64,000 nt of DNA, from positions 15,192,001 to 15,256,000 of the forward strand of contig OX485809.1 of NCBI GenBank assembly GCA_950295325.1, read 5' to 3'. Positions 13,216-51,886 of the stretch are shown here, one piece after another. Each line of letters begins with the position of its first letter. Position 1 is the stretch's first letter. This DNA is from Polytrichum commune (Eukaryota; Streptophyta; Polytrichopsida; Polytrichales; Polytrichaceae). The position numbers were made by a program, and so were the translations under genes. Below the pieces are notes generated by a model that worked only from the letters and a program-made list of their open reading frames with translations, did no database searches and had not been told where the DNA came from.

Positions 13216-13235
13216 GGGATATTAACTAAAATGAG
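13216..13235 (+). repeat. left terminal inverted repeat
   Basis: GGGATATTAACTAAAATGAG, identical to the reverse complement of 22701-22720. It is followed by AATTGGACCATTATGAGAC-type sequence, paralleled by AAATGGTCCGCTCAT at the other end, then by the GGGAACGTGC pair. Confidence 0.85.
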
Positions 13236-13292
13236 CCAATTGGACCATTATGAGACAATTCGTACCGATGGGAACGTGCATTGGGAACGTGC

Positions 13293-13314
13293 TTCACGGG
13301 TAAATACCCGTGAA
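13293..13314. repeat. terminal palindrome variant, arms TTCACGGGTA
   Basis: The palindrome nearest the left end has arms TTCACGGGTA and TACCCGTGAA around AA. It differs from the consensus arm CCCACGGGTG at three positions, yet every change is mirrored in the other arm. Pairing, rather than exact sequence, seems to have been kept. Confidence 0.8.
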
Positions 13315-13453
13315 TTGCCATCATTGACAAGGTTTAGAACAAGAGGAAGGTCATTGAGATAGACTAACACACTATTTCATGCACATTGGTGTATATATAT
13401 AAGTGAGATGAATGCCTTGTACTTGCCGAAAGTGAAACTTAGCCCACCTGTAA

Positions 13454-13829
13454 CCACGGGTGTTCACTCGTGACCAACCAACACCCCGCAACAGATGAAC
13501 CTATATCCATAACACAACATAAGTCGACACCACTAAGGAACAACCATGCGCATGTGAACAAATGTATGCAAATATAATGGGTGTAATCATAAAAACCATC
13601 ATGGGCACTTAATACAAAAACATCCAACCACCGGTGAACGCCCGTGACCAACCAACGGCATGCAACACACGATGCAAGATCCATAACACTTGCAGGAAGG
13701 TCTACAAATCATACCCGACTACACAACTAAGGGTCAAAACATCATTTGGATTTGATAAAAATTGGCACAGTGTGAACAAAATATGTCACAAAGTAGATGA
13801 ATTGTTGTATCCACGGGTGAACACCCGTA
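13454..13829. repeat. three degenerate palindromes, 13454, 13631, 13811
   Basis: The copies at 13454-13474 and 13631-13648 are both followed by gtgaccaaccaac and similar text further on, so a ~180-bp segment that includes the palindrome was duplicated. The copy at 13811-13829 has lost pairing at one end. Confidence 0.7.
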
Positions 13830-13855
13830 GACAATCTATAACCATAAAGGTCCGG

Positions 13856-14416
13856 CTATCTACAAGAGGAGTATGAATCAGTAATCATTTTCAACATCTT
13901 GTCATGGGGTATCCTTTGAGCTACACTACATTGCTTGCGCTTGAGTTCTTCAAGCCGTTTTTTCTCTGCCGTCAAAGCTGTAGCTTCTCGAAGTTGTTTC
14001 ACCCTTGCAGCCATGTAATCAGACATGGATGAGGTGGTATTGGGTGAACTACACCTCCAACATCCAGAACTATTTCCCGAGCCCGTGGGCTCACTAGGCT
14101 GTGTGGTTTGGAGAGAAAGGTGTCTCTTCACACGAGCGCGTGTGACCGGAGCTGCAACCACGACCGCGACCGGAACAGCCACCGCAAGCGCAACATCGCT
14201 TGTTTGGAGCATATGTGTCTAACACAACATAGGCCAAAATGATATTAGAATCCCCAGGACGAAACACAACCACAAAAAATGAGATTCATGTGGAAAATAA
14301 ATTACCTTAGGGCATGGAGATGTCACTTCGGCGAAGTCGGCGTTAGCATCCGGAGGACGGTGTCCGCGAGGTGGAGTGGCAATATAGTTCTTAGGTCGCG
14401 TTGGAAATGGGGAATG
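13856..14416 (-). CDS. small basic/coiled-coil frame, two predicted exons
   Basis: I do not recognise this gene. Two minus-strand exons fit together in phase 0: 14416-14306, with AG before it and GTAATT after it (37 codons, Pro/Arg-rich), and 14218-13856, after TTGTGTTAG, ending in a stop. The second exon encodes an Ala/Val-rich start, a CWRC pair, then a charged helix (AARVKQLREATALTAEKKRLEELKRK) likely to form a coiled coil. It is downstream of, and on the same strand as, the FCP1-like frame inside the palindrome-rich element, so it may be a third cargo gene or the 3' end of the same transcript. The first exon may not be the true start; a stop lies just upstream in that frame. Confidence 0.4.
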
Positions 14417-14628
14417 CTGTTATGGTACAAGAACATAAGATTCCATGGAAGCAGGACATTATGTGCAAGAGGAGCCAGTGGGTGCAAGATGAACATGTGC
14501 AAAAATAATTGAATTATAGCCGACTAAGTCCTACATATTAATGTTCCCCATAACAACCCAAACTCCCAAGTTGTCAACTAACATTGTCCAAGTGTTCTGG
14601 TACATTCATTGAATCAACCACCACATTG

Positions 14629-14649
14629 CCACGGGTGAACACCCGTGGG
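14629..14649. repeat. palindrome copy, AA centre
   Basis: Near-perfect copy of the 22-bp palindrome, missing one outer base of the left arm. It lies between the FCP1-like frame and the small basic frame. Confidence 0.9.
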
Positions 14650-14885
14650 ATAATGCCAAACGTTCAATGTGGTTGTAAATAGTCGAAACTTCTCTAACAC
14701 AACAGTGTTGCAAGGTAGTAGAATCCGAGTGGCATACATTCATCACCATATCATGTTTGCATGAAATAAGTCCACAAAACCAGAGCAACTTCCAAAAAGT
14801 CCAAAAAGTTTTAGTTCCACTTATTTCACATACAATGTACGAGCGAGTTGCGGCCCCAACAAGGGATCTACACAGACATCTGCGC

Positions 14886-15681
14886 CTATGGGACCATACG
14901 GGCAGATTTCAGACTTGTATGTCTAGCTAATGATTGCTTATAAATCTGAGAATTTGGCAACTCTAGATTGAAGGGTCCCTGGCCTGATGGATAAGGGTTG
15001 CTCCCCACAAAATCTGGCACATATTGTTCAGAACTCAAGAGCCTTTGTAGGTAATTATGCAGAGTGTCCAAGCTTTGGTTCGACAGAAATGGGGGAGGGT
15101 TGACGTAGCTCCCAGGAGGGTTTGGGATGCATTTGTAAGGGGAGTCATCAACAAGTAGTGTGGTCCTATGAGAGGGTTGCTTCATGTGCGGCAGAGGATG
15201 TGTCCGGCTCCACTCAAAAAATGCGCTCAGGTCTTTCACGAAGAAGCTTGAATCGGAATTCATAGGACTAGGAAGAACTTGTCCTCTCTCATCCTTCAGA
15301 GTGTCACATAGTTCTTGCCCAATGACATACTCTGGATGTCTACACCCTTTGAAGAAGTGTCTACACCCTCGCACAATTGGCTGGAGATTCTTCATGAGCT
15401 TCGACGACTAGATGACAACATGGAAGTTCGAAAGAACAAAACGCAGAAAGCGTCCCAGTCCTTTCCTAGGTATTAAGGCACTATATGGGAGAAAGAGGGG
15501 AGCCAACTCCCCAGTTATAAGGGGGCTATATTGTGATTCAAGAGACTTCCTGGTGTTGACATTGTCGCACTTTGTTGACCTCACAAGGATCCCGTTGACA
15601 TCCAGCACTAACCATATCTTCTCTCTCCGATGGACAACAGTGCTTGGAGAGGTGAGTATCTAGCGATGACAAAATCTCAAG
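14886..15681 (-). pseudogene. FCP1/NIF-like HAD phosphatase frame with one stop
   Basis: One minus-strand frame is open from 15681 to a stop at 14886, except for a TAG at 15408-15410. It has the order of an FCP1-homology (NLI-interacting factor-like) HAD phosphatase: a strand with WLVLDVNGIL (HAD motif I, with Asn in place of the second Asp), then NFHVVI-stop-SSKLMKNLQ, where family members usually have Trp before SS, then TLLVDDSPYK and NPPGSYVNPP near the end. TAG for TGG is a single transition. The Asp-to-Asn change suggests weak or no phosphatase activity even before the nonsense mutation. There is no clear start Met, so it may be a downstream exon of the gene at 16053-20976 (a candidate 32-nt linking exon lies at 15841-15872) or a separate gene missing exon 1. 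Confidence 0.7.
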
Positions 15682-15927
15682 TCATTCTAAAGGTTTTTAA
15701 TCTAAGGAAACAATAGATTCTAATGGATATTTCTCGACTAGGAAACAACAGATTGGGTTGACATATGTATGCATCCGCAATAGAAAATAATGCTTGCACA
15801 TTTATTGATTAGTTTTGCGAGCTAGGGGAGAACATCGTACCGAAGGAGGTAATTCGGCCGTGGCTGTAGGACCTGTGACCACATCAACACATAACTTATG
15901 AGATCCACATGCTGAAAACCATACTCT

Positions 15928-16041
15928 CCCACGGGTGAACACCCGTGGGCAAAATATCAATCAAGTATTGGACATGATCTAACAATTTGCGTGGAAATTG
16001 TAAACTACAAACCAGGGGACCCACGGGTGAACACCCGTGGG
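15928..16041. repeat. two perfect palindromes, 15928 and 16020
   Basis: Both copies (15928-15949 and 16020-16041) have the AA centre and perfect 10-bp arms. They lie just 3' of the last large exon of the main gene, after a possible splice donor at 16075, so they may be intronic. Confidence 0.95.
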
Positions 16042-16075
16042 ACCAATTCCAATCAAATAACACCATATATGATAC

Positions 16076-17873
16076 CTGGAGCTCGGTCTAGGAGTGCAGG
16101 GTCGTCATGAGAACTCGGGGGAATGACCTCCCGTTCTGCCGCAACCAAATTGGAGGAAGACGGTTGACCCTCAGCAACAGGGCCAACATGGACATCCCTC
16201 CTTGGAGAATCTGGCACTTCACTGACGTCGATGATCTCCATGGTAGAATCCACAACACTGCCAGCTTGAGCGGCGGAGGATCCCGGGAATTGACCTCGTC
16301 CTCCACGATGTTTTGGAGCTTCAAACGCGGTCCATCTCTTTCTCATTTTCTTCAATGAAGCGGCATGTAGAACATGTTTCACCTTCACTGCTTCACAAAA
16401 CGCTGGAGTGGAGAGATAAGCGAACATCTTGTGATAGTCATACGACTTGTATAAATGCACAAGATTCAATCGCACGTTCTCGGGAACCTCTGCCAAAAAT
16501 TTGTCCACAAATGGTGCAAAATGCACCTTCTCCTTCCCATCCGATTCCTTGCCCGTGTCGGGTCTCGAAGCAAGCATAGGGTGAGGGTAATCAACAAAGT
16601 TGAGTTTAACTCTGTTGTACCCTGGCATCCCATAGTCTTCGTCCTCGGAATCGTCCGTCATGTAGTCCACAAACGTCCCCCGAACCCGATGTGGAACTCG
16701 ATCTCTAACCTTCACCCTCACGTCTAGTTCCACACATTTCTCGGGCATATCATCATCACTATCCAAGCATATGACTTGTTTTCGCATGATCACCTCTGCT
16801 TCACTAGCTGTGGGCTCCTCTGCAACCACAACACCAGGGGAATCTCTGTGTATTCGTCCTTGGCCTAGGACTTCGAGCACGGCAGCGGCGACCTCCTCCA
16901 CAGGTGAGCTGACGTTCAAATCCGTGCTCACACCTTCGTCATGTGCAACTTCAGACATGATTACGTCCACAAGTTCATCCTCCACATCCGCTACTTCGCC
17001 AGATTCAACCTCGCGTTCAAGACTAGAATGATCCATGGCCTCCGCAGATCGAGAAAGTTCTACAACTCTAGGGGGACGTAGAGATGACCTCCCCCTTCGG
17101 GGAGCTTTCACCTTCTTCCTTGCAGATGGTCTCGATGTAGACCTTCTGCCAGGATTAGCCTCCAATTGAGGCTCTTCCGCGGACCGTGGACGCTCTTCCT
17201 CCTCGGATTCTCCCATAGGACGAACATCTGCTTGTTCTTCATTTCGTGTAGAAGTATCAACTTCAACAAACCCACGTCCGGGTGTAGATGGGATCCCAGA
17301 CGAGAAAGATCCCACCGCGATATTAACACTATGCTCAGGCTCCCTATGAACAACTTCCTGCCCCACCGCCTCCCCCAACCTCTCCCCCTCCACACCCCCC
17401 ACGGGTGAACACCCGTGGGGAACCTCGACCTGTGGCATGTCCTCCTGAATCACCATTGAAGTTTTGAAATTAAAGGCCTCCTCCTCGGCCTCCGAGAGGA
17501 GCTCCGCCATGGCGTCCGCCATTGCGGCGTTAACGGCCACAGCATCCTCTTGCTCTTGCTCTTGCTCTTCCACTTCCTTTTCAGACTCCCCTAGGTTAAT
17601 AACTGGGTTGTCTTCATTTACCGCCTCCTCTTCATCCTCTTCATCCTCTTCCTCCTCCAGGGGAGCATCATTGACAGGCTTGCGACGCAATGCGCGTTCA
17701 ATAATCGATTCAATATCGATATCATCTTCTCCTTCTTCTTCCGGGTCTCGGGCAGCGATTTTACCTTCTTCATTCCACCTTTGTAGGCTCCAGTCAAGTG
17801 CGGAAATCATTTTTGTCTTCGCCACCTCCACCATCTCCACGGGCACAATATTCACTACCTTCATACCCAAGGC
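16076..17873 (-). CDS. exon 4: acidic disordered tail
   Basis: After CAG at 17876-17874 the frame continues ALGMKVVNIVP and then becomes very acidic (runs of Glu/Asp near 17600-17700), with an RRSTSRPSARKKVKAPRRGRS basic island and a CLDSDDD motif. The tail reads as disordered and nuclear. One full palindrome copy (17398-17419) is translated in frame as HGCSPVG. The plus-strand Ser-rich frame at 17464-17877 is only its mirror. The exon may continue to the stop at 16053 or end at the donor CCAG|GTATCA at 16075. Confidence 0.6.
17398..17419. repeat. palindrome copy inside coding sequence
   Basis: A perfect AA-centre copy lies within exon 4 and keeps the frame open, adding HGCSPVG to the acidic tail. 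The palindrome therefore also spreads into, or is tolerated in, coding DNA. Confidence 0.95.
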
Positions 17874-18010
17874 CTGAACACATCCATTGAATGAGAAAGC
17901 CATTAAATGTCAAATTCGTTATTGTGAAATTCCCAACTTATTGATTCGGAAACAAATAACAATCTGGAGAGCTATCAAACATGGGGTTATAAGGCAGGTG
18001 CATGTCCAGG

Positions 18011-18032
18011 CCCACGGGTGTTCACCCGTGGG
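18011..18032. repeat. palindrome copy, TT centre, in intron 3
   Basis: Perfect copy in the opposite orientation (TT centre) inside the intron between exons 3 and 4 (18130-17874). Confidence 0.95.
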
Positions 18033-18130
18033 CCTTCCTACCTGGTGTAGGATATGGCTCTCTAGGACATCATCTACATAACGTGGTATATCCAGAATAT
18101 CACAATTGGGAGAAGATGCTCAATACTTAC

Positions 18131-19393
18131 ATGTGCCACTATATGCGCCTTGTTGCCTCCACAAATGTTCAGAAAAAATGACCCCTCAAGACAAGAAGAC
18201 TTGATGATATCTATATAGGTCTGCATTCTCAACTCCCCCTTGAATAAAGACTTGGCCTCCTCATTGGAATAAGCATTTTTCTCTGAATAACGTGCATATC
18301 GCCCAGGCTCATGCACGTCCAACATCTTCCGTCCTCCACAGAGCCGCACAGCCACCTCCGAACTTGCCTCGCCTCTACTAGGAAAAATGCAGGTTGTAAC
18401 ACGAAGAGCACTTGCTTCGAAGAAGCAATCGCGAGAAGCAATTTTCTCCTCTTTGGTTCCATGGTAGACTGCGTCACAAAATCTCACATTTCTCGGCAAG
18501 TGTGTCTTCAGAACATTGTGTATGAAATGCCGGTCTGGATATTCCGAAATCACAGTCCACAATTGGGGGGACTCCAAAATGCCAGGAAAAGCGCGACGAA
18601 GACCTTGCAGTGTGGAGTCGACAACCTCCATCATACGACCTCCACTACCTATTCCCGCCTGGACTCCGGGCAGAAAACGTGTGTCCATGTAAGCATGCAG
18701 TACTGGTGCGATCACTGTCCCACCGCTGAGCGCGTAATTGTTGTCAATAGACAACACGACATGGGCGGGCGAAACCTCCGTATTATGGCTACCTAGTATG
18801 TTTCGCACTCCTTCTTTGAACCGGTCGGGAATAGGTAGTCTCTTCCTTGTTGGGTTCATGGCGGCAAGAAGGTACTCCGCTCCAAGCAAGTCCACAAGTC
18901 GTTCTCGCTGGAGTTTTTCAAAGTTATTCACTCGCTTCCACAATCTCCACAAATCCCGATCAATAGTCTCCTTCTGCTCCACATTGACGATGTACATTGG
19001 GGTCGGGTCTAAACACTGTGCCATTCCGATATAGGTTTCATTCTTCTTCTTCCTATTCACCGCCCAATCGCGCACAGTCTTCAAGGTATGCCTAGGGTAA
19101 TCCTCTCCATCTTTGGCGGAGAGAATTTGATCCGCTGCCTTGTCGAGCTCCATCTCTGTCAAGCCTCAAAACTGCTTCAGATCGTTCTTGACCACCTTCC
19201 TTGGTTTGAAACCCTTCGTATCTTTCATACAAAGCCCGGTCTTTGGGTCGACGTACTCGCCACTCTCGTATTCCTTGAATATCTTCTCCCACTTTTCCCA
19301 TATGTCATCTCTCAACACGGGCAACACGTGCTCCATGATGAGGTTGGTCTCCCTCTCCACGCGGAACGTCCACATGACGCACGTAACAAATGC
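18131..19393 (-). CDS. exon 3: methyltransferase-like region with TGA
   Basis: The exon is exactly 421 codons between TTTGATACAG and GTAAGTATT. One TGA at 19166-19168 falls between KQF and GLTEMELDKAAD, and the frame is otherwise continuous. AHVVLSIDNNYALSGG has the strand-then-D-x-x-Y shape of motif IV (DPPY) of N6/N4 methyltransferases, but both prolines are replaced by Asn. GSFFLNICGGNKAHIVAH occupies the place of the SAM-binding motif, late in the sequence as in class beta enzymes. The altered motifs mean activity is doubtful; another Rossmann-like domain is possible. Confidence 0.5.
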
Positions 19394-19475
19394 CTGTATC
19401 AAATAGCGGCCATGTATCAATCCCCATGTATACAACTCCTTCTATTTCTATCAATCACCAATATCATCATAGTGG

Positions 19476-19497
19476 CCCACGGGTGAACACCCGTGGG
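19476..19497. repeat. palindrome copy, AA centre, in intron 2
   Basis: Perfect copy inside the 149-bp intron between exons 2 and 3 (19542-19394). Confidence 0.95.
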
Positions 19498-19542
19498 GAT
19501 CAAGCAATTGATAAATTCAAAAGTCACAAGTTTGGAATATAC

Positions 19543-20843
19543 CTTCTACTTCTTAAACGCTTCCGCATTGTTGGACTTTTCGCGTACGGTTCGGTCAGGC
19601 CTTCCTCGCCTAATCCACGTCTTCCTGGCGTGCTGAATGCACTCCGTAAATGATGGGAAATGTTTCCTATACTCATTATCCAGGTTTAGAACACCAGAAA
19701 GGTGAAACAGAGGGTCGTCATCACCTTCAGGGGCCCAGACCACATTACAGGGCCATGTCGAGAAAAACCTCTTCATCTCATCTGTGCTGGCCGCATCATT
19801 CACATACTCCAAACATGCTGCTAACGTGTGTTGTCCATTCACCACGTGGAACGATTTGTTCTTCACCTCCTCAAAATTTGTAGGTTTCCTTCGCCTATCC
19901 GATGGAACGATTGTCAAGAAGTTGGGATGGATCTTCGGTATGAAGGCATAGTTGAATAACCATGTCTTCATCTCCCTCAAATGTGCGTCGGATATGGGCC
20001 GGCAGTTATACCCTGCATCGCCCCGCTCTATATTTGCAATATTTACAAATCCATTGACGCCTTCACCAAAAATCCAAACCCTATTGTACTTGTTCTTAAA
20101 CAATTCCATATCCATCAATCTGTCTCCAACCGATTTTTCTGGAGGCCCATGAATTGATCGCCTCGGAATCTTCTCGAGCTCAAGAAATGGACTATCTTCG
20201 ACAATTTTCTTCTTGCCTCTCTTCGCCACAACATCCTCGGCGGATGTGTCTTCGACAATCATTTCATGATCTTCGGCGGGTCTTGTCTTCTTCCTAGACG
20301 ACATAGCACGTTCCTCACCTTGATCCTTCCTCTTCCCGTCTCGGATTTGCTTCTTCCTCAAATTTTCCTCCAACCTCGCCGCCTTCGCCTCCTCAACTAT
20401 TACCGTCACTCGCCGTAGAGCAGCCTTGTAGTCTTGCTCGATCATGACTGATCTCTCCTCCGCGGACCTTGTATGCTTGTTGGTCTCGCTGTATTCTATA
20501 CAATAGGTGAGAAATTCACCGTTTAATGAGCGGATGTTCTCTCCCTCATTGTTGAGTTCTTCGTTCACATCCGCATACGAAAATGTATCCACTAATCCTG
20601 CAACCTTGAAGTCCTTCTTGCGTTCTGACGACTTACACATAATCAGAACGCGGCTCCCATCCGCTTGGATGTCCAACACATGCTTTGCCTTTAGGAACTT
20701 CCTCCACGTGGAATTAGGCCTAGTCTTCGTGTATAGCGAGAGGACCGTTGTCTCCCCGAAACCACTGTACTGCATGAACCATTGCAACTCTGGGCCCAAC
20801 ACCTCAATATCGTAGTTCACCGCTCTTCCCACGCCCCCAGATA
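19543..20843 (-). CDS. exon 2: basic linker and ParB/Srx-like domain
   Basis: This exon encodes about 430 residues after the H3-like tail. The first third is unrecognised. Next come Lys/Arg clusters (RKKQIRDGKRK, SSRKKTRP, KRGKKK) suited to nuclear import. The final 150 residues have the order expected of ParB-type proteins: ISDAHLREMKTWL, then a beta-rich segment, then FHVVNGQHTLAACLEY, then LNLDNEYRKHFPSFTECIQ. Gly-Gln-His replaces the usual Gly-His-Arg, closer to DGQHR-type variants. A TAG at 19546-19548, just before the donor AAG|GTATAT, ends the frame in this copy. Confidence 0.6.
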
Positions 20844-20945
20844 CTGAAGACGAAAATGCACGTGTTAGTACTCCGCATAGTGTACAATTTTCATAATTTT
20901 AGAATTCATATAACATTGACGTGCACATAGGTATTGTGGTTATAC

Positions 20946-20976
20946 CTTTACGAGCCGTTTGCTTAGTTCTTGCCAT
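20946..20976 (-). CDS. exon 1: histone H3 N-terminal tail copy
   Basis: The ATG at 20976 is followed by codons for A-R-T-K-Q-T-A-R-K, identical to histone H3 residues 1-9. A G then precedes GTATAA (donor at 20945-20944). The next acceptor is CTTCAG (20849-20844), a 102-bp intron. Splicing gives K-V-S-G-G-V-G-R-A, echoing H3 K-S-T-G-G-K-A-P-R. Read through, the unspliced frame stops after a few residues. The ATGGC context suits plant initiation, and AG directly before the ATG could also serve as an acceptor for an upstream leader exon. Confidence 0.85.
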
Positions 20977-21158
20977 CTATATTCAAATGAGAGGTCACTG
21001 CGACACCTCTATGCACCTGAATAAAACACCAACTGTCTACCACATGGTCTTGTCTATAACCTTCAAAAACATAAACCTGTGGTGGAACAATGTTGTGTTA
21101 GCTAAGAAAGCCAAAAGAAAACTACCCAAAAATGGCCCCCTCCAAGAGAATGGAAAGG

Positions 21159-21495
21159 CCCATGGGTGTTCACCCGTGGGCATACCCCACCGCAAGTTAG
21201 GAGTGGGGACGCCCACGGGTGAACACCCGTGGGCATACCCCACCACCAGTTGCGAGTGGGGAGGCCCACGGGTGTTCACCCGTGGGCCAACCCCACCACC
21301 AGTTGGGAGTGCGGAGGCCCACGGGTGTTCACCCGTGGGCCAACCCCACCACCAGTTAGGAGTGGGGAGGCCCACGGGTGAACACCCGTGGGCATACCTC
21401 ACTAGTTGGTAGTGGTGAGGCCCACGGGTGAACACCCGTGGGCATACCCCACCACCAGTTGCGAGTGAGGAGGCCCACGGGTGAACACCCGTGGG
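21159..21495. repeat. seven-unit 53-bp palindrome array upstream of H3-mimic gene
   Basis: Palindromes start at 21159, 21212, 21265, 21318, 21371, 21421 and 21474, at spacings of 53, 53, 53, 53, 50 and 53. The central dinucleotide is TT, AA, TT, TT, AA, AA, AA, so the core flips while the ~31-bp spacer keeps one orientation. Most spacers contain their own inverted repeat (CCCCAC...GTGGGG). The first unit has one mismatch (CATGGG). The array ends 183 bp before the ATG of the minus-strand main gene, in its promoter or a 5'-leader intron: ATGGCTCCACC...CCTG|GTGAGT at 21591-21568 is a possible leader exon, though it would not stay in frame with MARTKQ. Confidence 0.95.
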
Positions 21496-22495
21496 CCCTT
21501 GAAATAACCACTTCCAGACAACCCCTTTCACACCTAGGGCCAAGGTAATGAGAATTTATGCATACTCACCAGGATTCTTTGGTGGAGCCATGCCTAATGT
21601 TGTTCAAATCCAATGTTTGTTTCTGCACATAACAAAACCCTAAAAGATTAGTTCCATGTGAAATACATTCATGCTCTCAAAGCAAAAAAACAAGAAATTC
21701 TGGTCTCACATTATTAGGAACACACCCTCATTGCATCCTAGTTTGAGCATTCCTCTAGCATTTCACTCAATTCATCACAACCAAGCATCACACAACTCAC
21801 TTAAATTTCTCTAACATATTTGGGTGTGAGATTCTCCAACGAATTGAAACCCTAGTGCACCAGAAATGCACCACATTCTCACAATTGAAACCCTACCATC
21901 AGAAACAAACAAACCCTGGTTCACCACAAACAGCAATTCCAGAATTGGACTTCACAAGCACTACAATGCAACCAAAGCATGAATAGAATGGAAGATTAGG
22001 AGAATGAAATGATTGCTTACAAGTACCAGAATTGGACTTCTCTCCAATCTTTCTTCATCCTCTCACTTTTCTCCACATTTCAGCAATGCCACATTCTGGA
22101 TTTGAACAAGAGTATGGAGAAGTGGGTGGAAGCAAGATGAAGCAATAGAATGGAGAAGTGAGTAGAAGCTACAGAAAGAAGATAATCAAGAAAGTCAGTT
22201 GAAGCAAGAAAGAGAATGAGAATCAGGAAAGTGAGTAGAGGGTGGAGAAATAAGAGAAACAAGAAAAGTAGGAGGAGCAAGAGAATGGAGAGAATGAAGA
22301 AATGTGGAGAGAAAGAGAATGACAAGAATTTAGAAAAGTGGTATTCCAGCAAGAATGAAGAGAGTCCAAAATGAAGATAGTCCAAAAAGAATGAAGAGAG
22401 TCCAGCAAGAATGAAGAGAGTCCAGAAAAGTGGTGGAAGAAAGAAGAGGGAGTTTTGAAGTGAGTCCTCCAATGTGTATGGTGGGAACAAATTAT

Positions 22496-22631
22496 CCACG
22501 GGTGTTCACCCATGGAGTGTAGGCACAATCCTTTTGTCTTCTTTGATGGGATCCTCCATATTACAATTGATTGTTTGTCCGGTGTCATTGGAACACATTG
22601 TTTGTGGTCCCTAAATCCTCCACGGGTGTTC
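22496..22631. repeat. degenerate palindrome and half-site near right end
   Basis: 22496-22516 is a copy with one mismatched arm position (CCATGG). 22620-22631 keeps only the left arm, CCACGGGTGTTC, and is the last unit before the right-end GGGAACGT pair and TIR. Confidence 0.8.
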
Positions 22632-22700
22632 TATCGTACAAAGAAGCAATCATGACGTTCCCATGACGTTCCCCACATTAAAATGAGCGGACCATTTGTC

Positions 22701-22720
22701 TCATTTTAGTTAATATCCCT
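22701..22720 (-). repeat. right terminal inverted repeat
   Basis: Exact reverse complement of 13216-13235. The adjacent inner sequence parallels the left end, including two GGGAACGTC motifs 11 bp apart. Confidence 0.85.
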
Positions 22721-23824: not shown

Positions 23825-25052
23825 TCCGTCATGGCCTGCGCAAACGCTTCACCTGCTACGCCCTCCGCCAGGTCAAGAGTGCCCTCGGAGTCCACTGCCT
23901 TGTTCCCATCCTCCTGCAGTATCTCTTCCACCACTGTAGCAATATCCGAACTGACGTTGGCATTGTCTCCCGCCTTGTTCGTGGTGGCATCGGCCTCAAC
24001 ATCTTTGATGCCGTCACTGCAAACAAACACTTCAAAGGGACATGGCACATCCACAACGCTCACAACATTCAACATGGGAGAGGGGGCCTGTTCTTGTACC
24101 ACCGTCCTCGCCTCCGCCGTCGTTGACGTCAGCGCTGATGTATCCAACAACTTTGTAGATGACGATGGCTCCGTCATCTCTTCGCCTGCACTGCCCTGTT
24201 TAGGGCGTTGATTGTGAATAATCTTTTGCATCATCTCCTCTAGCTGTTTGTGGGACGCTGCCACGTTCTCTCCCAGCCGGGTAACGCTACACTCCAGGTC
24301 CGACACTCGAGTATGCACAAATTCGATCTCCCTTCCATGATCGGGCCGCACTTTGCGTTTATCCTCTTGAAGGCATTGGTACTCCTTGGCGACCTCCACA
24401 TCCACCTCTGAATTGTACAGTGAGCGGTTCTTCAACATTGTCTACAAAATTAGCCAACACATTTGGGAGCGCATATAACATCCATCAGTTGAATCATACA
24501 GGTGACGAATGAATGACTCCACAATAGTAGCCACCTCGAAAAACAAAACCACAAACACAGAAAATGACCTCTGCGGCTTGCATTTGCATGTCTACCGCAT
24601 GCCATTCCAGACGGGGGACGTCGTGCACTACATTCTGCTTCACATGTGCCGGCATAGACAACTCCAAATGACATTCTGCAGCAAGGTGCACGTCAACGCG
24701 TGCATGCCATGTGATTTACTAGCCGTGATACAACCTCTCTCTCAATGGCCTTCATCTGCGCTGTTGGTGACCCCTTCCCTTTTGATATAGAACGCATGTG
24801 TTCAGATTTGGCCTGCGAAGCCTCGGTGGCACGCATAGCCACTAGTGTTTTCCAATGCTCGGGATGCACATCAGCGGGTTTGCCCATGTTGGCATTAATG
24901 AGTTGATTCAATCTCCAACGTATATTGATTAGGACCTTTGTTATGATCGGTTGCATCCACTTCTCACACACTTTGTTGGATTCTCCGCACATCTGCCAAT
25001 CTGCATAGAACACGCGGTCGTCAATTTCCTCACACTTTTGTGCTCCACACAA
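23773..25052 (-). pseudogene. En/Spm-type (Transposase_24-like) gene remnant
   Basis: Two minus-strand frames, 25052-24693 and 24438-23773, look like consecutive exons of a plant transposase of the Ptta/En/Spm (Transposase_24) type. The first has RWRLNQLINANMGKPADVHPEHWKTLV...AKSEHMR, with the W-x-x-L-V and A-K-S-E pattern of that family, and then AIEREVVSRLV. The second opens with a helical stretch and a predicted coiled coil (ECSVTRLGENVAASHKQLEEMMQKI), then a low-complexity Ser/Thr/Glu-rich tail. No catalytic domain or transposon ends were found. The gap 24439-24692 could be an intron. It is probably an immobile fragment, and its 3' part overlaps the LTR-like motif at 23719. Confidence 0.45.
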
Positions 25053-25622
25053 CTTTTCTGTTAGGCATTGGTAGTAAATAAAAGATGAATGTCAACGGAA
25101 GAAGAATCTGACCAACATGACGTCCACATGCCTGCCATGGCATGCGGGGGACAAAAATTCAGTTGAATTTCTGTCTTTCTAAGTTTCCCATGTGTTTTCC
25201 ATGTGTCTCTGTGGATGTCGCACTGGACTTAATGTCACTTCAAATGTCCAACCAGACATGCACATGTCCAACCGGACATGGACATGTCCCTTCAGACGTC
25301 CCACTACAACGACGGCAGATCAGAAACATTACACATAACCACTTGCATGACAAGAAATATGTGCCCAATGCATGGCAAAAACAACTTTCGTTGTAAACCT
25401 GCGTACAGACATTGCAAGAGTCGTTTTCTCTCATGCCGTGGCTAGCCCTTCCACCTCGTCGTTGGGTCCGGGTCCTTGGCGTATTTTTTTATATCCCCGC
25501 ACAACACTGCCTTCATCGACCCAAAGGGTTGTCATTGCGCATCCAGTTCGATGTGTTTCTTCATGCCAGCTTGAACCCCTCCCTTTCGTGCCGAAAGCGC
25601 ATGCCTGGTTTGAATTGCATCG

Positions 25623-32031: not shown

Positions 32032-34954
32032 GTGCGAGATGATTAACCAAATTGTGCAAGTAGTCATATTCCTTATAGTTTTCGAAGCTCATATGAATAT
32101 CTTATTATTTTCAGAGGGAATATTCATTTTCTTATTATATTATTATATAGGTTCTTCTCAATTATATTGAGTATCGAGCTTAGAATGACTAACAAATTTT
32201 CAGCACCCTCTTGCATCAATCTTCTGTGATTGACTCTCTTCCACTACCCGATAATGGACTTGCTGGGGAGCTCGTGGACATGGTCGTGACCGTTGTGGTT
32301 GCGGTTATTGGTAGTTTGTGTGGTTGTCTCCGTTGGGGTTGTATTTTAGGCCTGTGTTTTTTCCGCCCCTCCTCCGTCCCCAAGCCCGGGTCTCTGGTGG
32401 TTGTGCGGTGGACTTTTACTCTTCAATGTAATCACCCTCCGTCTTCAATCGAAATGAATTGAAATAAAATTTCGAGCACATAATTTAATCTCTTTTAAAC
32501 ACAACTCTTTTTGTGTCCGTTGTTAGATCCACATCTAACGCCGCACCACTCAACTATAGGTGTCCACTATAGGTTACAGGTGCCCGTTTAATGTTATGAG
32601 ACCCGCTTACCTTAAGTGAGTGGAGGTGAATGTACCACAACTTAAGTTTTGTGTTGGTGAGCAGTATACTCGAGTAATTTTCTTCTTCACATTCTGTTCT
32701 GATTGTTTCCTGGAAAATAATTTGTGTGAGGGCGCAACATTTACTTCTAAAATCGACATATCATGTAGATACGGAGTTGTGGCTGTGGCGCGATTGACTG
32801 GAAGAACAGCTGTTGCAAGTTGAATTACTGGAAGTGATTACTTCAACACTGTTGGTGAATATCTACTGACATAGCGACTATCAGAATTTGTCCAACTATC
32901 TGTAGTGCATTATCACAAGAGTCTTTCATAAGAAGCAGAAGCACAACCTGTGCGTACTTGTAGACACTTGACGTGGTCACAGAAGATTTATGAATATTCT
33001 TATACGGAAGTCTAATTGATATGATCAGTGGCAATGCAACGAGTGATAGAATATGTCGGCTATTTACAGACTTCTTGAAGCTACGGGTGGTGAGAAATAC
33101 AGCTCAGCTTCTCACACTGAAGCAAGAATACAAAATACCGAGTTAGGATTGCATCAATACCCTATCGATTTCTAGATTGTGGCTGACTGATCTACCTTCA
33201 ATTGATCTACCTACTGCACCTGTTCGTTGCATTTGAGGCGATCCTTTTATTGATTTCGTTGCATCTGCAACCCGTAGACTCACCTCTGCCAGGATCCAAT
33301 GTTGCGAACAAGCAGCAACTGTCCATGTGCTGCAGTTCCTACGAAGCAGCCGTGGATTGAACTTCGAAGTCTAAGCTAGACCTTAACGGCCGGGTTTTTG
33401 ATAGATGCCCCTAGCGGCCCCTGACACCGCTCCCGACGGTCAAGTGATCGCTGCAGAGACCGTAGGAGGTGGAATACCTGACACCTGGCTCAAAATACTG
33501 TGACTCATCGTGGGTGAGCTGTCTTGTCAGAGCCGTTCGTCATTATTCTGACGGCGTCATTGATGGACAGGCTTTGGAGGTGAGCGGTAAAAGGGACGCC
33601 TTTCAAAATGGTCCTCTTCGGAAGTTGCTCTTGTGCTTGGAGCTGGGAACAACTACTCGAGGTGAGTGGCACTGCATTTGATCTGGCTGCTTGACGAAGA
33701 ACGACTTGCATTAGGGCTTTGTTTACTCTGGGGAAGTTTTTGGGTCGAGGTCATTGCTAAGGTTATGGGTAGAGCTCATTTGGCTTTCCTACGAAGCCGG
33801 TTCTCCACATGAGCGCTTTCGAAGTTAGAAGTGTTGAGGAGCGCCATGTGGGGCAATAAGGTCAGAAAGCAGTCTAATGTCAACAATGTAGGTCCTCTTT
33901 CGTTCTTGGTAGCACTGTCCTTCCTCAAGATCAACTGAGGTTTGGCTATTGACAAGCTCCTCACGGCATTCACGAATGAATCACAATAAGTAGAGTGTTT
34001 TCATGTGTATTGTGTGCGGGCTTCTGCTCGTGGGAGCTACTGTTGTGGTGGCATTTTGTTGAGCTATGAACGTAAAGTGTTTAACGATAAGGATATAAGA
34101 AATCTCAGTGTGATAACACTGTCATGAAAGAGAGTTTGTCCACCGCTTATGAAGTGTATAATGTGTCCAAAGGGAAACTCAGAAGTACACTCCTTTGTAT
34201 TAAGGCATATCTCAATAACCATTTCGTTGGATGTACCTTGGTCTTTACCCCTTCATGAGTTACATTGTATAATGAACTGCTAGGTGTTTGTGCCTTGAGC
34301 AAGGTTGATGCTAGCTATACCATAGTGAGTTGCATTTTCATTCTATGTCATGAGCCACATGCTGATTATTCCTTTTGAGCCTTTACAGTCTCAAGGCTAT
34401 CTTAAGCATTAGGCACATTTGTACTTATAATCCTAAGCTTCAAGGCATTGTCATTGCATCCACTTTGATAGTTGTTCCCTGGCCCTGAGCCTTAGTTAGT
34501 TGATTGCATAATGGCTAACTACATTGTTTTTGATAAATAATGTGGGCGTATGTATAGTATGGCAACTCCTATAGTGTGACCCAAAATATGCACTGTCGCG
34601 GATGAAATAGCGAAGCTAAAGCGTAGCCCAAGTATTGTAAGTCGATTATGCTTTACTGTTTACTGAAGTGTTTCTCTCATGCCCCATTAATATGGCTTTG
34701 CCATCCTTTGTGGTTTTTCTTTTCCTTGTTGTACATTGCTTTGAGGGTGTAATTAGCAACACTTTATTTCTGCAGGTCTGTTGTTGGAGGGCCAGCATAG
34801 AATCAGTTGTCACCGATTGGAGAAAATAACAGTCTTCTAAATTGTCGAAGCAGTCAAAATGCAAGGATTCAGAGATGTTCACTTCGGTGATGGAATTTAA
34901 CGAGGCGGATCCTAGTGATTATGACCACTTCGAGCTAATACGACACATATTCAA
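32032..34954. other. intergenic/5' region of the Lsi2-like gene
   Basis: No credible coding exon was found. About 32240-32475, ending in aaatgaattgaaataaaatt, resembles the 3' end of a LINE or SINE. ttatttctgcag at 34765-34776 is a good acceptor and may end a 5'-leader intron of the downstream gene. Confidence 0.35.
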
Positions 34955-37490
34955 ATGGCGTGGGCGTCGAAGAGGATAGTGATTCCCGGATGCATAGCCT
35001 TCGCAATATGGTGGGTGTTAGCAGTGTTCCCAAGGGTGAGAATTCTACCGATTGGCCGGACTGCAGGTTCGTTGGTTGGGGCTGTCCTAATGGTCGTTTC
35101 TCAAGTAATTTCACCGACTGCTGCATTTGCAGCAGTGGATCTATCTATCCTCGGTCTTCTTTTTGGGACGATGGTTATCAGCATTTACCTTGAAAGGGCG
35201 GATCTATTCAAGTATTTGGGACATGCCCTCGAGTGGAGAACTCGGGGTGGAAAGGACTTACTCTGCAGGGTTTGCCTCCTTGCAGCCATCTCGAGTGCTC
35301 TGTTTACAAACGACACCACTTGCGTTTTGCTCACTGGTTTTGTGCTTAAAATCTGCAGAGAAAAACAACTTTCTCCCCACCCCTTTCTTATGGCCCTGGC
35401 CACTAGTTCCAACATTGGTTCTTCTGCTACCTCGATCGGGAATCCTCAGAATCTTGTTATTGCAGTGCAAGGAAACATCGGGTTTGGAATCTTCTTAAAA
35501 GGGATATTGCCTGCTATGCTCGTAGGGATGATTGTGAACACGATATTGTTATTGGTGTTTTATTGGAAGAAACTGGAATCTAAAGTTCCTGAGCCATCTA
35601 ACACAGTTGCGAATTCCGAAATTGGCGTGGACTCAACATTGCCCCAAGCAGTGACATGGAATGGATTAATCGGCAGTCCTAGGCAATTATCTGGCTCTGC
35701 AAGGAGAAGCCATGAATTGGAGGACATGGAGCACGGCCGCTCTTTACATATTGAATTGCCAAATCAAGGTCCAGCGGATATGGCTACGAGCAATTCGACA
35801 CCTGCAAGTGGAGTTATTAGGATTCCCTTTACGCACAAGGAATTCCAGAGAAGGCCGGTCTGGAAATTTTCTGTGTATCTTGTAGCAGTTGGGATGCTTG
35901 CTGCCCTTTTGGCTGGACTAAACCTGGCATGGACTGCAATTACAGCTGCCATTGTGCTCACGGTTCTTGATTTTCGAGATGCCAGTCCAAGCCTCGACAA
36001 GGTGCTTATGCATTTCATAACAGTGGACCAAGAATCTGTTGCTCATATGTCTACGTGATCTGCCATTTCTCTAGAGAATGCCTGCATTGGGTTGTTTCTT
36101 TAACCCATATTCGAACCCCAAAGATTGATGACAGCAGGCACATAGCGTGTCATATGCGATACAATAGCTCTCATAACAACAACGTTACTAATTATGCAAG
36201 GTGGTGCCACTAATTATGTGAGATTTGAGTATAATTTATAATTTGGTGTGTTGCTGGATCCTTCAAATAGGAGGAACCAATCATATAAGATAACCATTCA
36301 GAATTCATATGTCTGCATGTCAAAAGGGGCGCTGCATTTAACAATCATAGCCTCCAGTATGTGTTTCAGGGAAGTGCCCCTGGAAGTGTATGTTCAAATG
36401 TCTCTTCTTTCTGACTAACAATGAATAGGACTGGATTGTTGGATTCTAACGTTTTGAGATGGATTGTTGCTCTCAGGTGTCGTATGCTCTACTAGTGTTT
36501 TTCTCCGGCATGTTCATAACTGTTCAAGGATTCAACCTGACGGGGGCACCAGAAGTGCTATGGACTGCCGTGGAACCACATGCTCAGATAAATACCACGA
36601 GTGGTGTGGCAGTCCTATCTTTGATTGTAACTTTATTGTCAAATGTAGCATCTAATGTCCCAACTGGTAATTGTTCTCTGCACTCGCTCGTTTTGGTTGA
36701 ACATCATGACTCTTAGTAAAGTTGGTAGTGATAGCAGTGAGGAGGATTGCAGGAAGGACGTCACTGTTGAGACGTAATGCTGCGGTTCTTCGACGAGGAA
36801 CTTGAGCATAGTGCCGAACTAACGAAGTATCTTCTGCCAACCACACAAAAGCCTTCACAGTACAATGGATATCTTATCAATGTGGGACTCGCTTAAAAAT
36901 TAAGAAGTGTGCACCATCAATGTCAGTATGATATATTTGTGCACTTTTACATATTGCTATTTTAATTAGATGATTCTGTGGTAAGGGTGCATGGCCTCCT
37001 ATGGTCTTTTGGGCTATCATGTCGTTGAATAACCATGTACTTATCCAAATTATCGACCTCTGTAATTATACCAGATGAACTCTAAACTATTTTCCCCTGT
37101 TTCAATCTTGGGTAATGAATATATGAATAAACAATCTTATTTCCTTGGTTGCTACAAGGTTTATATGGTGAAAGATCTAAAATCTGTACTGACTACAGTC
37201 TGGATGTTCTTCGTTGTACAGTATTACTTCTTGGTCCAAGACTTGCTATTTCTTCAGCGGCCACAGCTGGAGTAAGTGTCACGAAGGCATGGTTGATCCT
37301 AGCATGGGTAAGCACAGTTGCAGGGAACTTGACACTCATAGGCTCAGCAGCAAATGTCATTGTTGCTGAACAAGCTAGGCGCACACAAGTAACGACTGGC
37401 TTTAACCTCTCTTTCTGGAATCACTTGTGGTATGGATTTCCATCAGCACTCATAGTGATTGCAGTTGGACTTCCCCTCATTAGTGGCTGA
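34955..37490 (+). CDS. Lsi2-like ArsB/NhaD-type efflux transporter
   Basis: Three exons, 34955-36001, 36477-36666 and 37222-37490, splice into a 501-residue multi-pass membrane protein. Junctions: DK|VSYALLVFF in phase 0, and NVPT then V in phase 1. The protein matches the plant Lsi2 silicon-efflux/ArsB-like group: an early FPRVRILPIGRTAGSLVGA segment, FTNDTTCVLLT and NIGSSATSIGNPQNL (conserved ion-transport loops), a hydrophilic central loop (about residues 205-285), and the C-terminal repeat with SNVASNVPT and WVSTVAGNLTLIGSAAN. Family members export silicic acid or arsenite at the plasma membrane using a proton gradient; which substrate applies here cannot be read from sequence. All frames are intact, so this looks like a functional gene. 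Only the ATG at 34955 gives the conserved N-terminus. Confidence 0.92.
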
Positions 37491-49583: not shown

Positions 49584-49711
49584 AAAATGTTACATACCTA
49601 TAATCTGGATTAAAAACAACTAACAAGTCTGTCATCTGGCACGAGCAGATTGCAACCCTGGGTGACCGATCGGGATCATCATCGCCAGCCGCTCAGTGAT
49701 CATCGCCAGCC

Positions 49712-51886
49712 ATGAAGACGACGAATATTGTGGATCCATCAGTGTCCGATGTTGTGAAATCCAACACGAGTCAGAAGTGTTTTGATTCCAGGAGGTTCAG
49801 GGTAGTGTTTCTGCTTATCCTCCTGCTTGTAACAGCTGAGTTTCTGACCACGGACATTCCAGGCCGATTCTCCAGCACCGGACGACTGTTCAATCGAAGC
49901 AGCATTCGCGGTGTGGTTAATATGGACCGTGACCCTGCCGTGTCGAAGACGTCCACATTTTTACTGGAAGATTCAAACAGGTGGGCTTGCGGCGGAAGTG
50001 GGGATCTGGACAACATGAAATCTTACAGCGAGTGGGTTGCGGCCGCGAGTGAAGATGATGATGAGGAGGTTCTGTGTGCAGCCCACCGAGTTTCCATGCG
50101 GCCTTTGCCTCCCGGGATACCGAGGGTGGCCTTTATGTTTATGACAAGAGGAGATATAGCTTTGGAGCCTGTTTGGCGGAGGTTTTTTGCAGGCCATGAG
50201 GACAGGTGAGTGGGGTGGCAAAACTATCCATACCATTCTTGGATTACATTCTTAGTAACATACTTGACTAGTCCGTATGAAAAATAGAATTATTCATAGC
50301 TTACCTCAAATCAAGCCATGGCGACAGGGAAGTTACCAAAGGGTGGCAAAAGGGTGGTAAAGTTCACGTTGCTCCTCTTTGTGATGTTCAATAACATCAA
50401 ATCATCCAACCCGATTAGATTCAGCTTCAAAAGTGATTACACTAGTAGAAACAATTGTGAATTCTAAATGGGAGCATTACATCAGGTACTCCATCTACGT
50501 CCATGCATCGGACCAGGAGCATTACCAGTTTTCAAATAGCTCCTTGTTCCACGGGCGAGCAATTCCCAGCAAACCGGTGGAAAGGTTGGGCATGAGCTTC
50601 GTGGAAGCTGTTAGGCGTTTGATTGCTTACGCATTACTAGACACCTCGGTACCCAATGTTTGGTTCACGTTGGTGTGTGAGGTAACCATCCCACTTCGAC
50701 CGTTTTCGTATGTCTACGATTACTTCATGCACTCGGAGCTCAGTTTCGTGGAGGGTTTCGTGACGCGTGACTGGTGGAGGAAATCGTGGACGGACAAGAA
50801 ACATGCCCTTAGATCTGACAAGATGCGGAAGGGCGAGCCGTGGATATCTGTGCACCGGCGGCACGCGGGGTTAATTGTGGGCGACTTTGTGATTTTTTAC
50901 AGGTCAGTACATGCACAGTTGGGAACTTGGGGTACCTCTTCAAGAACCAAGAATCTTCTTTTGTATGGAATTTAAAGATACCTCCTTTTACATCGAAATA
51001 ATAATAAGACAAGAAGCTAGTAGAGATATGATATACGTAGAAGCAACTTTATCATTCAGAATGTTGTCAATAATCGTGCATATGTTGTTTTTTCATAATC
51101 ATAACTTTGAGACACCTAGTGCGATGAGATAAATAATGTGGACAACTTCTCTATGCGTTAAATGTTATTTTAGGTGTAAGCTTCATGTTGATATTCACAG
51201 ACTGATTGAACTCTGTTGCGTCTTGGAATGTATGTTTCACACTAAAGACATTTTTCCTTTGCTTTTCTCTAAGAAAAATGTGCAGATATGACTCCAAGTC
51301 CTTTCAAACTACAATAGAAAAGACATTCAAGATAAATTAACATCACAAAATAATTTTAATTTTTGGTCAGAACAACATATAAAGTACACAAAGCACTATC
51401 ACTTTCTTATGTTTAAAAGAAGGTTTCTTTATAAGCCATATGAAAACTTGACAGTTTTGGTGCGGGACATTCCTTTTGGGTACCCCAACCGTGCATGTGC
51501 CCAGGTTCAAACATTATTGGCACGAGATGGGCGTCCCGTCCGAGATTTACATGCCGACCATGTTTGCGATCGCGGATCCGGGCGGGATCTCGAACCACAC
51601 GGTGATGTATGTAGATTGGTTGCGGCAGGATAAGAGTCACCCGTTCACATTCAACAAGACCACAGATCTTGCACCATCGATTCTCCGGAAGATACAATCT
51701 CAGACAACGAATACCGATGGGTTCTACGTTAAGGGCGTGACGCACGGGTTCGAGAACGAGCAGTCGTGTGTTTACAACGGGCGGCCGAACTCGACATGTT
51801 TCCTGTTTGCTCGCAAAGTCACGATAGAGCCGCAAGTCGTCAATCGCTTGCTTGATTCCGCTCATGCTCTTGGCCCGGCCGATTGA
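49712..51886 (+). CDS. GT14/DUF266 (BC10-like) glycosyltransferase
   Basis: Exons 49712-50205, 50486-50902 and 51505-51886 splice (each junction within an Arg codon, AG|G) into 430 residues. The protein is a type II Golgi membrane protein of the core-2/I-branching-like, DUF266 plant family: a signal-anchor near residues 29-46 (RVVFLLILLLVTAEFL), then a stem, then PRVAFMFMTRGDIALEPVWRRFF, YSIYVHAS, FHGRAIPSKPV, FTLVCEVTIPLRPFSYVYDY, and a C-terminal C-x-Y-N-G-R-P-N-S-T-C-FLFARK. Relatives such as rice BC10 affect cell-wall and arabinogalactan glycosylation; donor and acceptor are not established here. Frame, splice sites and motifs are intact. A promoter-proximal duplication and a TATAAAT at 49571 lie upstream. 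A degenerate C-terminal copy is at 58880-58990. Confidence 0.92.

Follow-up and report, generated by a model that had tools for sequence, protein, structure and literature searches.

An exact histone H3 tail at the predicted start of a gene in a probable DNA element of Polytrichum commune

The window analysed here is a whole stretch of 64,000 nucleotides from Polytrichum commune (contig OX485809.1, positions 15,192,001 to 15,256,000), in whose own numbering all coordinates below are given, and on its minus strand lies a predicted gene that begins just as histone H3 begins. In fact the ten codons at 20947-20976 (ATG GCA AGA ACT AAG CAA ACG GCT CGT AAA) translate to MARTKQTARK, as the original prediction had claimed, and the nine residues after the initiator Met are all identical to residues 1-9 of H3, i.e. 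the predicted product carries the H3 N-terminal tail ARTKQTARK in its sequence. The H3 N-terminus is a docking site for the gene-silencing machinery, and our best reading, to which we give a probability of about one half, is that it would act here as a docking or decoy peptide at the N-terminus of a mobile-element protein.

The match to H3 is real and not a product of chance. Counting both strands, the window contains 2,824 ATGs, and the expected number of ATG followed by ARTKQTARK is 4.6e-9 by six-frame codon frequencies and 2.3e-8 by the gene's own composition (about 5e-9 to 2e-8 per window), which agrees with the earlier judgement that a chance match is very unlikely; moreover a diverged relative, P0002, has the identical start, and a chance resemblance can therefore be practically dismissed. 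When the window is translated in all six frames, ARTKQ itself turns up a single time. No histone-fold domain came from Pfam scans of 28 of the 37 relatives matching exon 2, of 21 of the 34 matching exon 3 and of the window open reading frames (ORFs) tested. Judged by sequence, the product has at its predicted start what defines an H3-tail mimic, namely H3-like residues at the free N-terminus of a non-histone protein. As to the origin of exon 1, it is most likely captured real H3 coding DNA.

The gene model has five exons (15802-20976, minus strand) and gives 1,487 residues, or 1,488 codons with the stop, while its four introns are all of the GT-AG type with the donors GTATAA, GTATAT, GTAAGT and GTATCA. 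Exon 1 (20946-20976) consists of the ATG, the ARTKQTARK codons and the opening base of the codon that follows, the G at 20946, so that the junction reads ATGGCAAGAACTAAGCAAACGGCTCGTAAAG|GTATAA and intron 1 starts at 20945; this intron (20844-20945, 102 bp, AAAG|GTATAA...TTCAG|TA) is interrupted by a stop in the window and open in frame in P0002. The claim that exon 1 joins exon 2 in frame stands as a prediction from the sequence, with the TTCAG acceptor at the intron end, and the spliced product would read K-VSGGVGRAVNYD, adding VSGGVGRA. The likening of VSGGVGRA to the STGGKAPR of H3 holds in part, since the GG at H3 positions 12-13 is common to both, whereas S10 and K14 are absent from the tail peptide ARTKQTARKVSGG. 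In H3 the former is a phospho-switch and the latter an acetylation site; their loss would remove both while sparing R2, K4, R8 and K9, and ARTKQTARKVSGG is in this sense a concrete peptide, a natural experiment on the H3 residues that a reader or writer needs. Another candidate donor, CTC|GTAAAG at 20951, would lead to MARTKQTA-L and lose R8 and K9, but its exon side is poorer than that of the main donor.

Three of the exon boundaries are supported by the residues of relatives. In front of exon 2, all 10 of the 37 relatives that were readable by pattern have S, T or A, which fits the requirement of an NCAG|T acceptor. Directly behind exon 2, where 29 relatives could be read, 25 have V (GTN, the donor), and P0019 has E there and reads directly on into exon 3. 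Behind exon 3, V stands in every one of the 23 relatives readable at that point. For the boundaries of exons 4 and 5 and the last intron, the window sequence is the sole basis.

The relatives come from two protein searches. The one with exons 1 and 2, in which scoring was limited to the 8,000 candidates with the most words in common, gave 37 matches, all of them lacking a precomputed Pfam domain, and the one with exon 3 matched 34 database proteins; 28 of the former (alignment A1, P0013 and P0030-P0037 left out) and 21 of the latter (A2, P0059-P0071 left out) were aligned. While P0001 covers 96% of the query at 99% identity, P0002, a protein of 494 aa, is diverged, with 358 of 426 residues in exon 2 as in the window. 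It starts MARTKQTARKGITTVPMC, its first ten residues being MARTKQTARK with 9 of 9 identical after the Met, and as listed it is the sole one of the 37 to reach exon 1, the other 36 ending short of it and being uninformative on this point; a search with its first 45 residues returned P0002 alone. As this start is common to the window and P0002, it is older than the split of these two copies, and one diverged relative has thus kept it.

Searches in more distant collections gave no relative. In viral contigs, the protein query returned 4 and the alignment query 18 pattern stretches, none encoding a relative, and three patterns returned zero; in bacterial and archaeal genome contigs, one pattern returned zero and the alignment query 3 stretches, none a relative. 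Such collections should hardly hold plant or algal DNA, and the H3-start patterns were run without a positive control, hence these zeros are weak. Similarly, sequence searches against solved structures gave nothing below E 0.05, tblastn no match for P0001 against phages or for an 86-residue piece against plasmids, and NCBIfam no match near the cut-off among 5 proteins scanned.

Behind the tail, the product looks like a PH-like domain, a coiled coil, a ParB-like segment and a divergent amino-methyltransferase-like fold, all of these calls except the tail being weak. Exon 2 (19543-20843, minus) covers the VSGG start, the PH-like beta domain, a long helix, a basic stretch and the ParB-like segment, where NGQHT is invariant across the 28 aligned relatives. 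Over this NGQHT region, the ParB-like PHROG 1033 matches weakly in 2 of the 28 relatives (E 0.0058 and 0.042); the Pfam scan of 28 of the 37 exon-2 relatives found no ParB family, and the structure prediction of the region is not confident. Exon 3 (18131-19393, minus) carries the methyltransferase-like domain. In beta-class amino-methyltransferases the catalytic motif IV is D/N/S-P-P-Y/F/W, while here, taking the strand end to correspond, the aligned relatives have D in 21 of 21, followed by N, D, K or S, then any residue, then Y, F or W in 21 of 21, with no PP; DPPY is thus replaced by DNxY, and as judged from the motif, methyltransferase activity is doubtful. Exon 4 (16076-17873, minus) continues past the methyltransferase-like motif into a long acidic tail (14% E), without a match in the Pfam scan, and exon 5 (15802-15872, minus) ends in a natural stop TAA.

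The gene lies in what is probably a DNA element of about 9.5 kb (13216-22719), as its ends and repeats suggest. The candidate terminal inverted repeats, each of 31 bp (left 13216-13246, plus; right 22689-22719, minus), are identical over 20 bp (13216-13235 and 22700-22719) and agree in 28 of 31 overall, as is characteristic of a DNA transposon. Between them, within 13810-22516, the 22-bp palindrome CCCACGGGTGWWCACCCGTGGG occurs 15 times when up to 3 mismatches are allowed: 11 of these copies are exact, 2 have one mismatch and 2 have three. None lies elsewhere in the window, and 100 shuffles gave a mean of 0.00. The earlier term "transposon gene" accordingly gains from the inverted ends and the element-specific palindromes; on the other hand, Pfam recognises no transposase among the element ORFs scanned, and the ends have no clean target-site duplication (the adjoining flanks share no identical 2-11 bp, and the CTATTAT present at either side is offset). 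A weak match to PHROG 3356 "transposase" is found in 6 of 21 relatives, with a best E of 0.013.

The palindrome itself deserves some description. Its exact copies span 15928-21495 and fall in introns, in one exon and in an upstream tandem array of 6.5 copies of a 53-bp unit (21156-21496), which holds 7 of the 15 palindromes and lies between the H3-like exon and a rival first exon considered below. The copy in a coding exon (exon 4, 17398-17419) reads PHGCSPVGG in frame, and translated traces of the palindrome are seen in 6 of 71 fetched proteins, namely P0001 and, more diverged, P0003, P0004, P0005, P0030 and P0048. CCCACGGGTGWWCACCCGTGGG is a candidate binding site for the ParB-like protein of the element. 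Repeats of the GGGAACGT type also occur near both inverted ends (13216-22719).

From these features a mechanism can be sketched, in which the use of ARTKQTARK as the N-terminus is plausible by its sequence. Removal of the Met would expose ARTKQTARK with R2, K4, R8 and K9, and the tail could then be a docking site or decoy for host readers and modifiers of the free H3 N-terminus, e.g. UHRF1/VIM-type PHD fingers, chromodomains, LSD1 and SET-type enzymes. Meanwhile the body, PH-like, ParB-like and methyltransferase-like with its altered motif, would anchor the protein to the palindromes of the element itself, and chromatin factors would thereby be drawn to, or kept from, the DNA of the element; the direction of the effect could be counter-silencing or self-silencing. 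A fuller account, which we offer only tentatively and would sooner bet against than for, is that the exact H3 N-terminus was taken up by a mobile element and joined there to a ParB-like, methyltransferase-like body that binds DNA and sits on the element's palindrome arrays, where a nucleosome-free H3 tail would draw or titrate the H3K4, H3K9 and DNA-methylation machinery, as a transposon-encoded H3 decoy for counter-silencing (or self-silencing). An exact H3 N-terminus on a protein of a mobile element would mean that transposons are able to mimic the very substrate on which the silencing pathway acts.

Histone-tail mimics are already known in host factors and viruses. The H3-like tail of influenza NS1 is a case of histone-tail mimicry by a selfish agent, though that tail is C-terminal, short and viral while the one here is N-terminal. 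The likeness of PAF15 and LIG1 to H3 is partial, the SNAG domain mimics the structure of the H3 tail rather than its residues one for one, and the VIM proteins are the plant counterparts of UHRF1. According to the excerpts of the papers used here, the H3-like stretches of PAF15 and LIG1 act in the UHRF1/DNMT1 pathway, which couples H3 and DNA methylation (PMC8594673); the SNAG domains of GFI1 and SNAI1 dock as H3-tail mimics in the substrate cleft of LSD1, an H3 demethylase (PMC5896174); the H3-like N-terminal tail of Sgo1 is bound by Survivin, whose domain binds the H3 N-terminus (PMC9253516); and automethylated G9a/GLP is bound by HP1 proteins (PMC9768651). These peptides act by docking, and we infer a docking or decoy role of this kind for the tail here, on a DNA-binding protein encoded by the element. 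PAF15 and LIG1 resemble the present case as non-histone proteins with an H3-like stretch, yet they are host replication proteins, whereas here an exact H3 N-terminus of nine residues is found on a probable mobile-element carrier; likewise the SNAG factors are transcription repressors, unlike a probable mobile-element protein, and Sgo1 is a cell-division protein whose tail, Ala-Lys-Glu-Arg in the excerpt, is loosely H3-like.

On the side of the methyltransferase-like fold, the excerpts describe the rotifer N4CMT as an active bacterial beta-class amino-methyltransferase joined to a chromodomain (PMC8885841). It shares with the protein here an amino-methyltransferase-type fold (a weak call in our case) joined to an H3-related module, but N4CMT reads H3 marks through its chromodomain, whereas the protein here imitates the H3 tail and has DNxY in place of DPPY. 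Furthermore, charophyte and dinoflagellate retrotransposons of the DIRS and Gypsy types carry C5-methyltransferase DNMTs, and Dam-like N6A methylases are noted in DIRS elements (PMC5890265); these are, like the probable element here with its weak methyltransferase-like call, mobile elements with a DNA methyltransferase, but the excerpt of that paper mentions no H3-like peptide. As far as these excerpts go, the host H3 mimics, the rotifer chromodomain methyltransferase and the DNMT-bearing retrotransposons are the most similar published systems. Among the papers listed by open-access literature searches, 20 of 126 in the case of the broad ARTKQ search, none described an H3 mimic in a protein of a transposon.

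Several observations weigh against a simple reading and have to be set beside the evidence above. This copy has a premature TAG at codon 443 (19546-19548, exon 2) and a premature TGA at codon 520 (19166-19168, exon 3), the former position being read through by P0001 and the latter by P0038, both 99% identical to the window and both listed with 30,922 bases as the longest contig. Once two intron positions and the initial residues, where GTG starts appear as M, are set aside, the window differs from these relatives at 10 coding sites. At 9 of them the difference fits a C-to-T or G-to-A change of the window copy, though at one of these A-to-T would serve as well, and the remaining site shows a transversion. 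At 7 of the 10 sites the relatives have the commonest residue of the family, the other 3 sites being variable, and the whole pattern is as expected of the decay of a cytosine-methylated copy. Moreover, a rival first exon lies upstream at 21570-21591 (minus; ATGGCTCCACCAAAGAATCCTG|GTGAGT, coding MAPPKNP), whose donor GTGAGT is stronger than that of the H3-like exon; it provides a candidate upstream start in the same phase as exon 1, with an in-frame splice to exon 2 (MAPPKNP-VSGG). Finally, between P0002 and the window, 11 of the first 12 intron codons agree, about as many as in exon 1, so that with this single pair, selection on the tail is inseparable from regional similarity. The interpretation as a whole is partly supported: the exact H3 start, the splice, the non-chance match, the probable mobile carrier and the start kept in P0002 speak for it, and the two stops, the better donor of the rival exon and the equally conserved intron codons against a simple form of it.

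A serious alternative built on these points, though on balance an unlikely one, is that the first coding exon of a host H3 gene was captured within the first intron of the element gene, where the true start would be MAPPKNP (21591) and the H3 match, genuine but untranslated, would be spliced out. Besides the phase, the stronger donor and the equal conservation of intron codons 1-12, an acceptor-like TATAG stands directly 5' of the H3-like ATG, as for a captured internal exon. However, an untranslated passenger of 31 bases should have lost residues, yet 9 of 9 are kept in P0002, which differs from the window at 68 of 426 exon-2 residues and at 12 of 22 codons of intron positions 13-34; the donor too is retained, as is the frame in which exon 2 is entered. 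It is improbable, too, that there is no intron at all and that the 102-base stretch is coding, the protein starting MARTKQTARKGITT and the window copy having an extra nonsense change there. The stretch does make 34 codons in frame, fully open in P0002 with 21 of 34 matching the window, but in the latter part of it the agreement drops to 10 of 22, where early exon 2 has 129 of 150, 18 of the 28 relatives in the alignment start no earlier than the first exon 2 codon, i.e. the stretch is not kept in most listed proteins, the S/T/A pattern in 10 of 10 fits an NCAG|T acceptor, and the donor and acceptor resemble those of the gene's other introns; besides, such a protein would still have the H3-tail start. 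Quite improbable, lastly, is a host multigene family, a plant or algal nuclear gene using the H3 mimic in its own chromatin regulation with the inverted ends being coincidental, for which the lack of a Pfam-recognised transposase in the tested ORFs and of a clean target-site duplication could speak, while inverted ends enclosing all 15 palindromes, the many diverged relatives and the decayed window copy speak against it.

Joining the MAPPKNP exon to the H3-like exon at the TATAG acceptor, as a cassette, was rejected, as just four codons separate that join from a TAA. A gene with two alternative first exons, of which one supplies the H3 tail and the other does not, would be an attractive arrangement.

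Some other features of the element and its surroundings may be recorded. Inside the element, two ORFs (14889-15659, minus) look like portions of a phosphatase of the NIF/FCP1 type and are possibly captured host sequence; their matches to Pfam NIF, at E 0.0013 and 0.092, stay under the curated cut-off, and LVLDVNG stands at the place of the catalytic DxD. The tRNA and Rfam scans of the window gave zero matches. Just outside the element, a weak match to Pfam Transposase_24 (plant En/Spm) is seen at 24693-25091 with E 0.0044, under the curated cut-off, as would suit the genome of a plant or green alga, and on the other side a 434-aa ORF at 9909-11210 matches DDE_1 (DDE superfamily endonuclease) over the Pfam cut-off. 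Further away, an ORF of the citrate-transporter/ArsB type at 34925-36055 (CitMHS, E 6e-57) is probably an ordinary host gene, and a Core-2/I-branching glycosyltransferase gene extends across at least two ORFs at 49700-50972.
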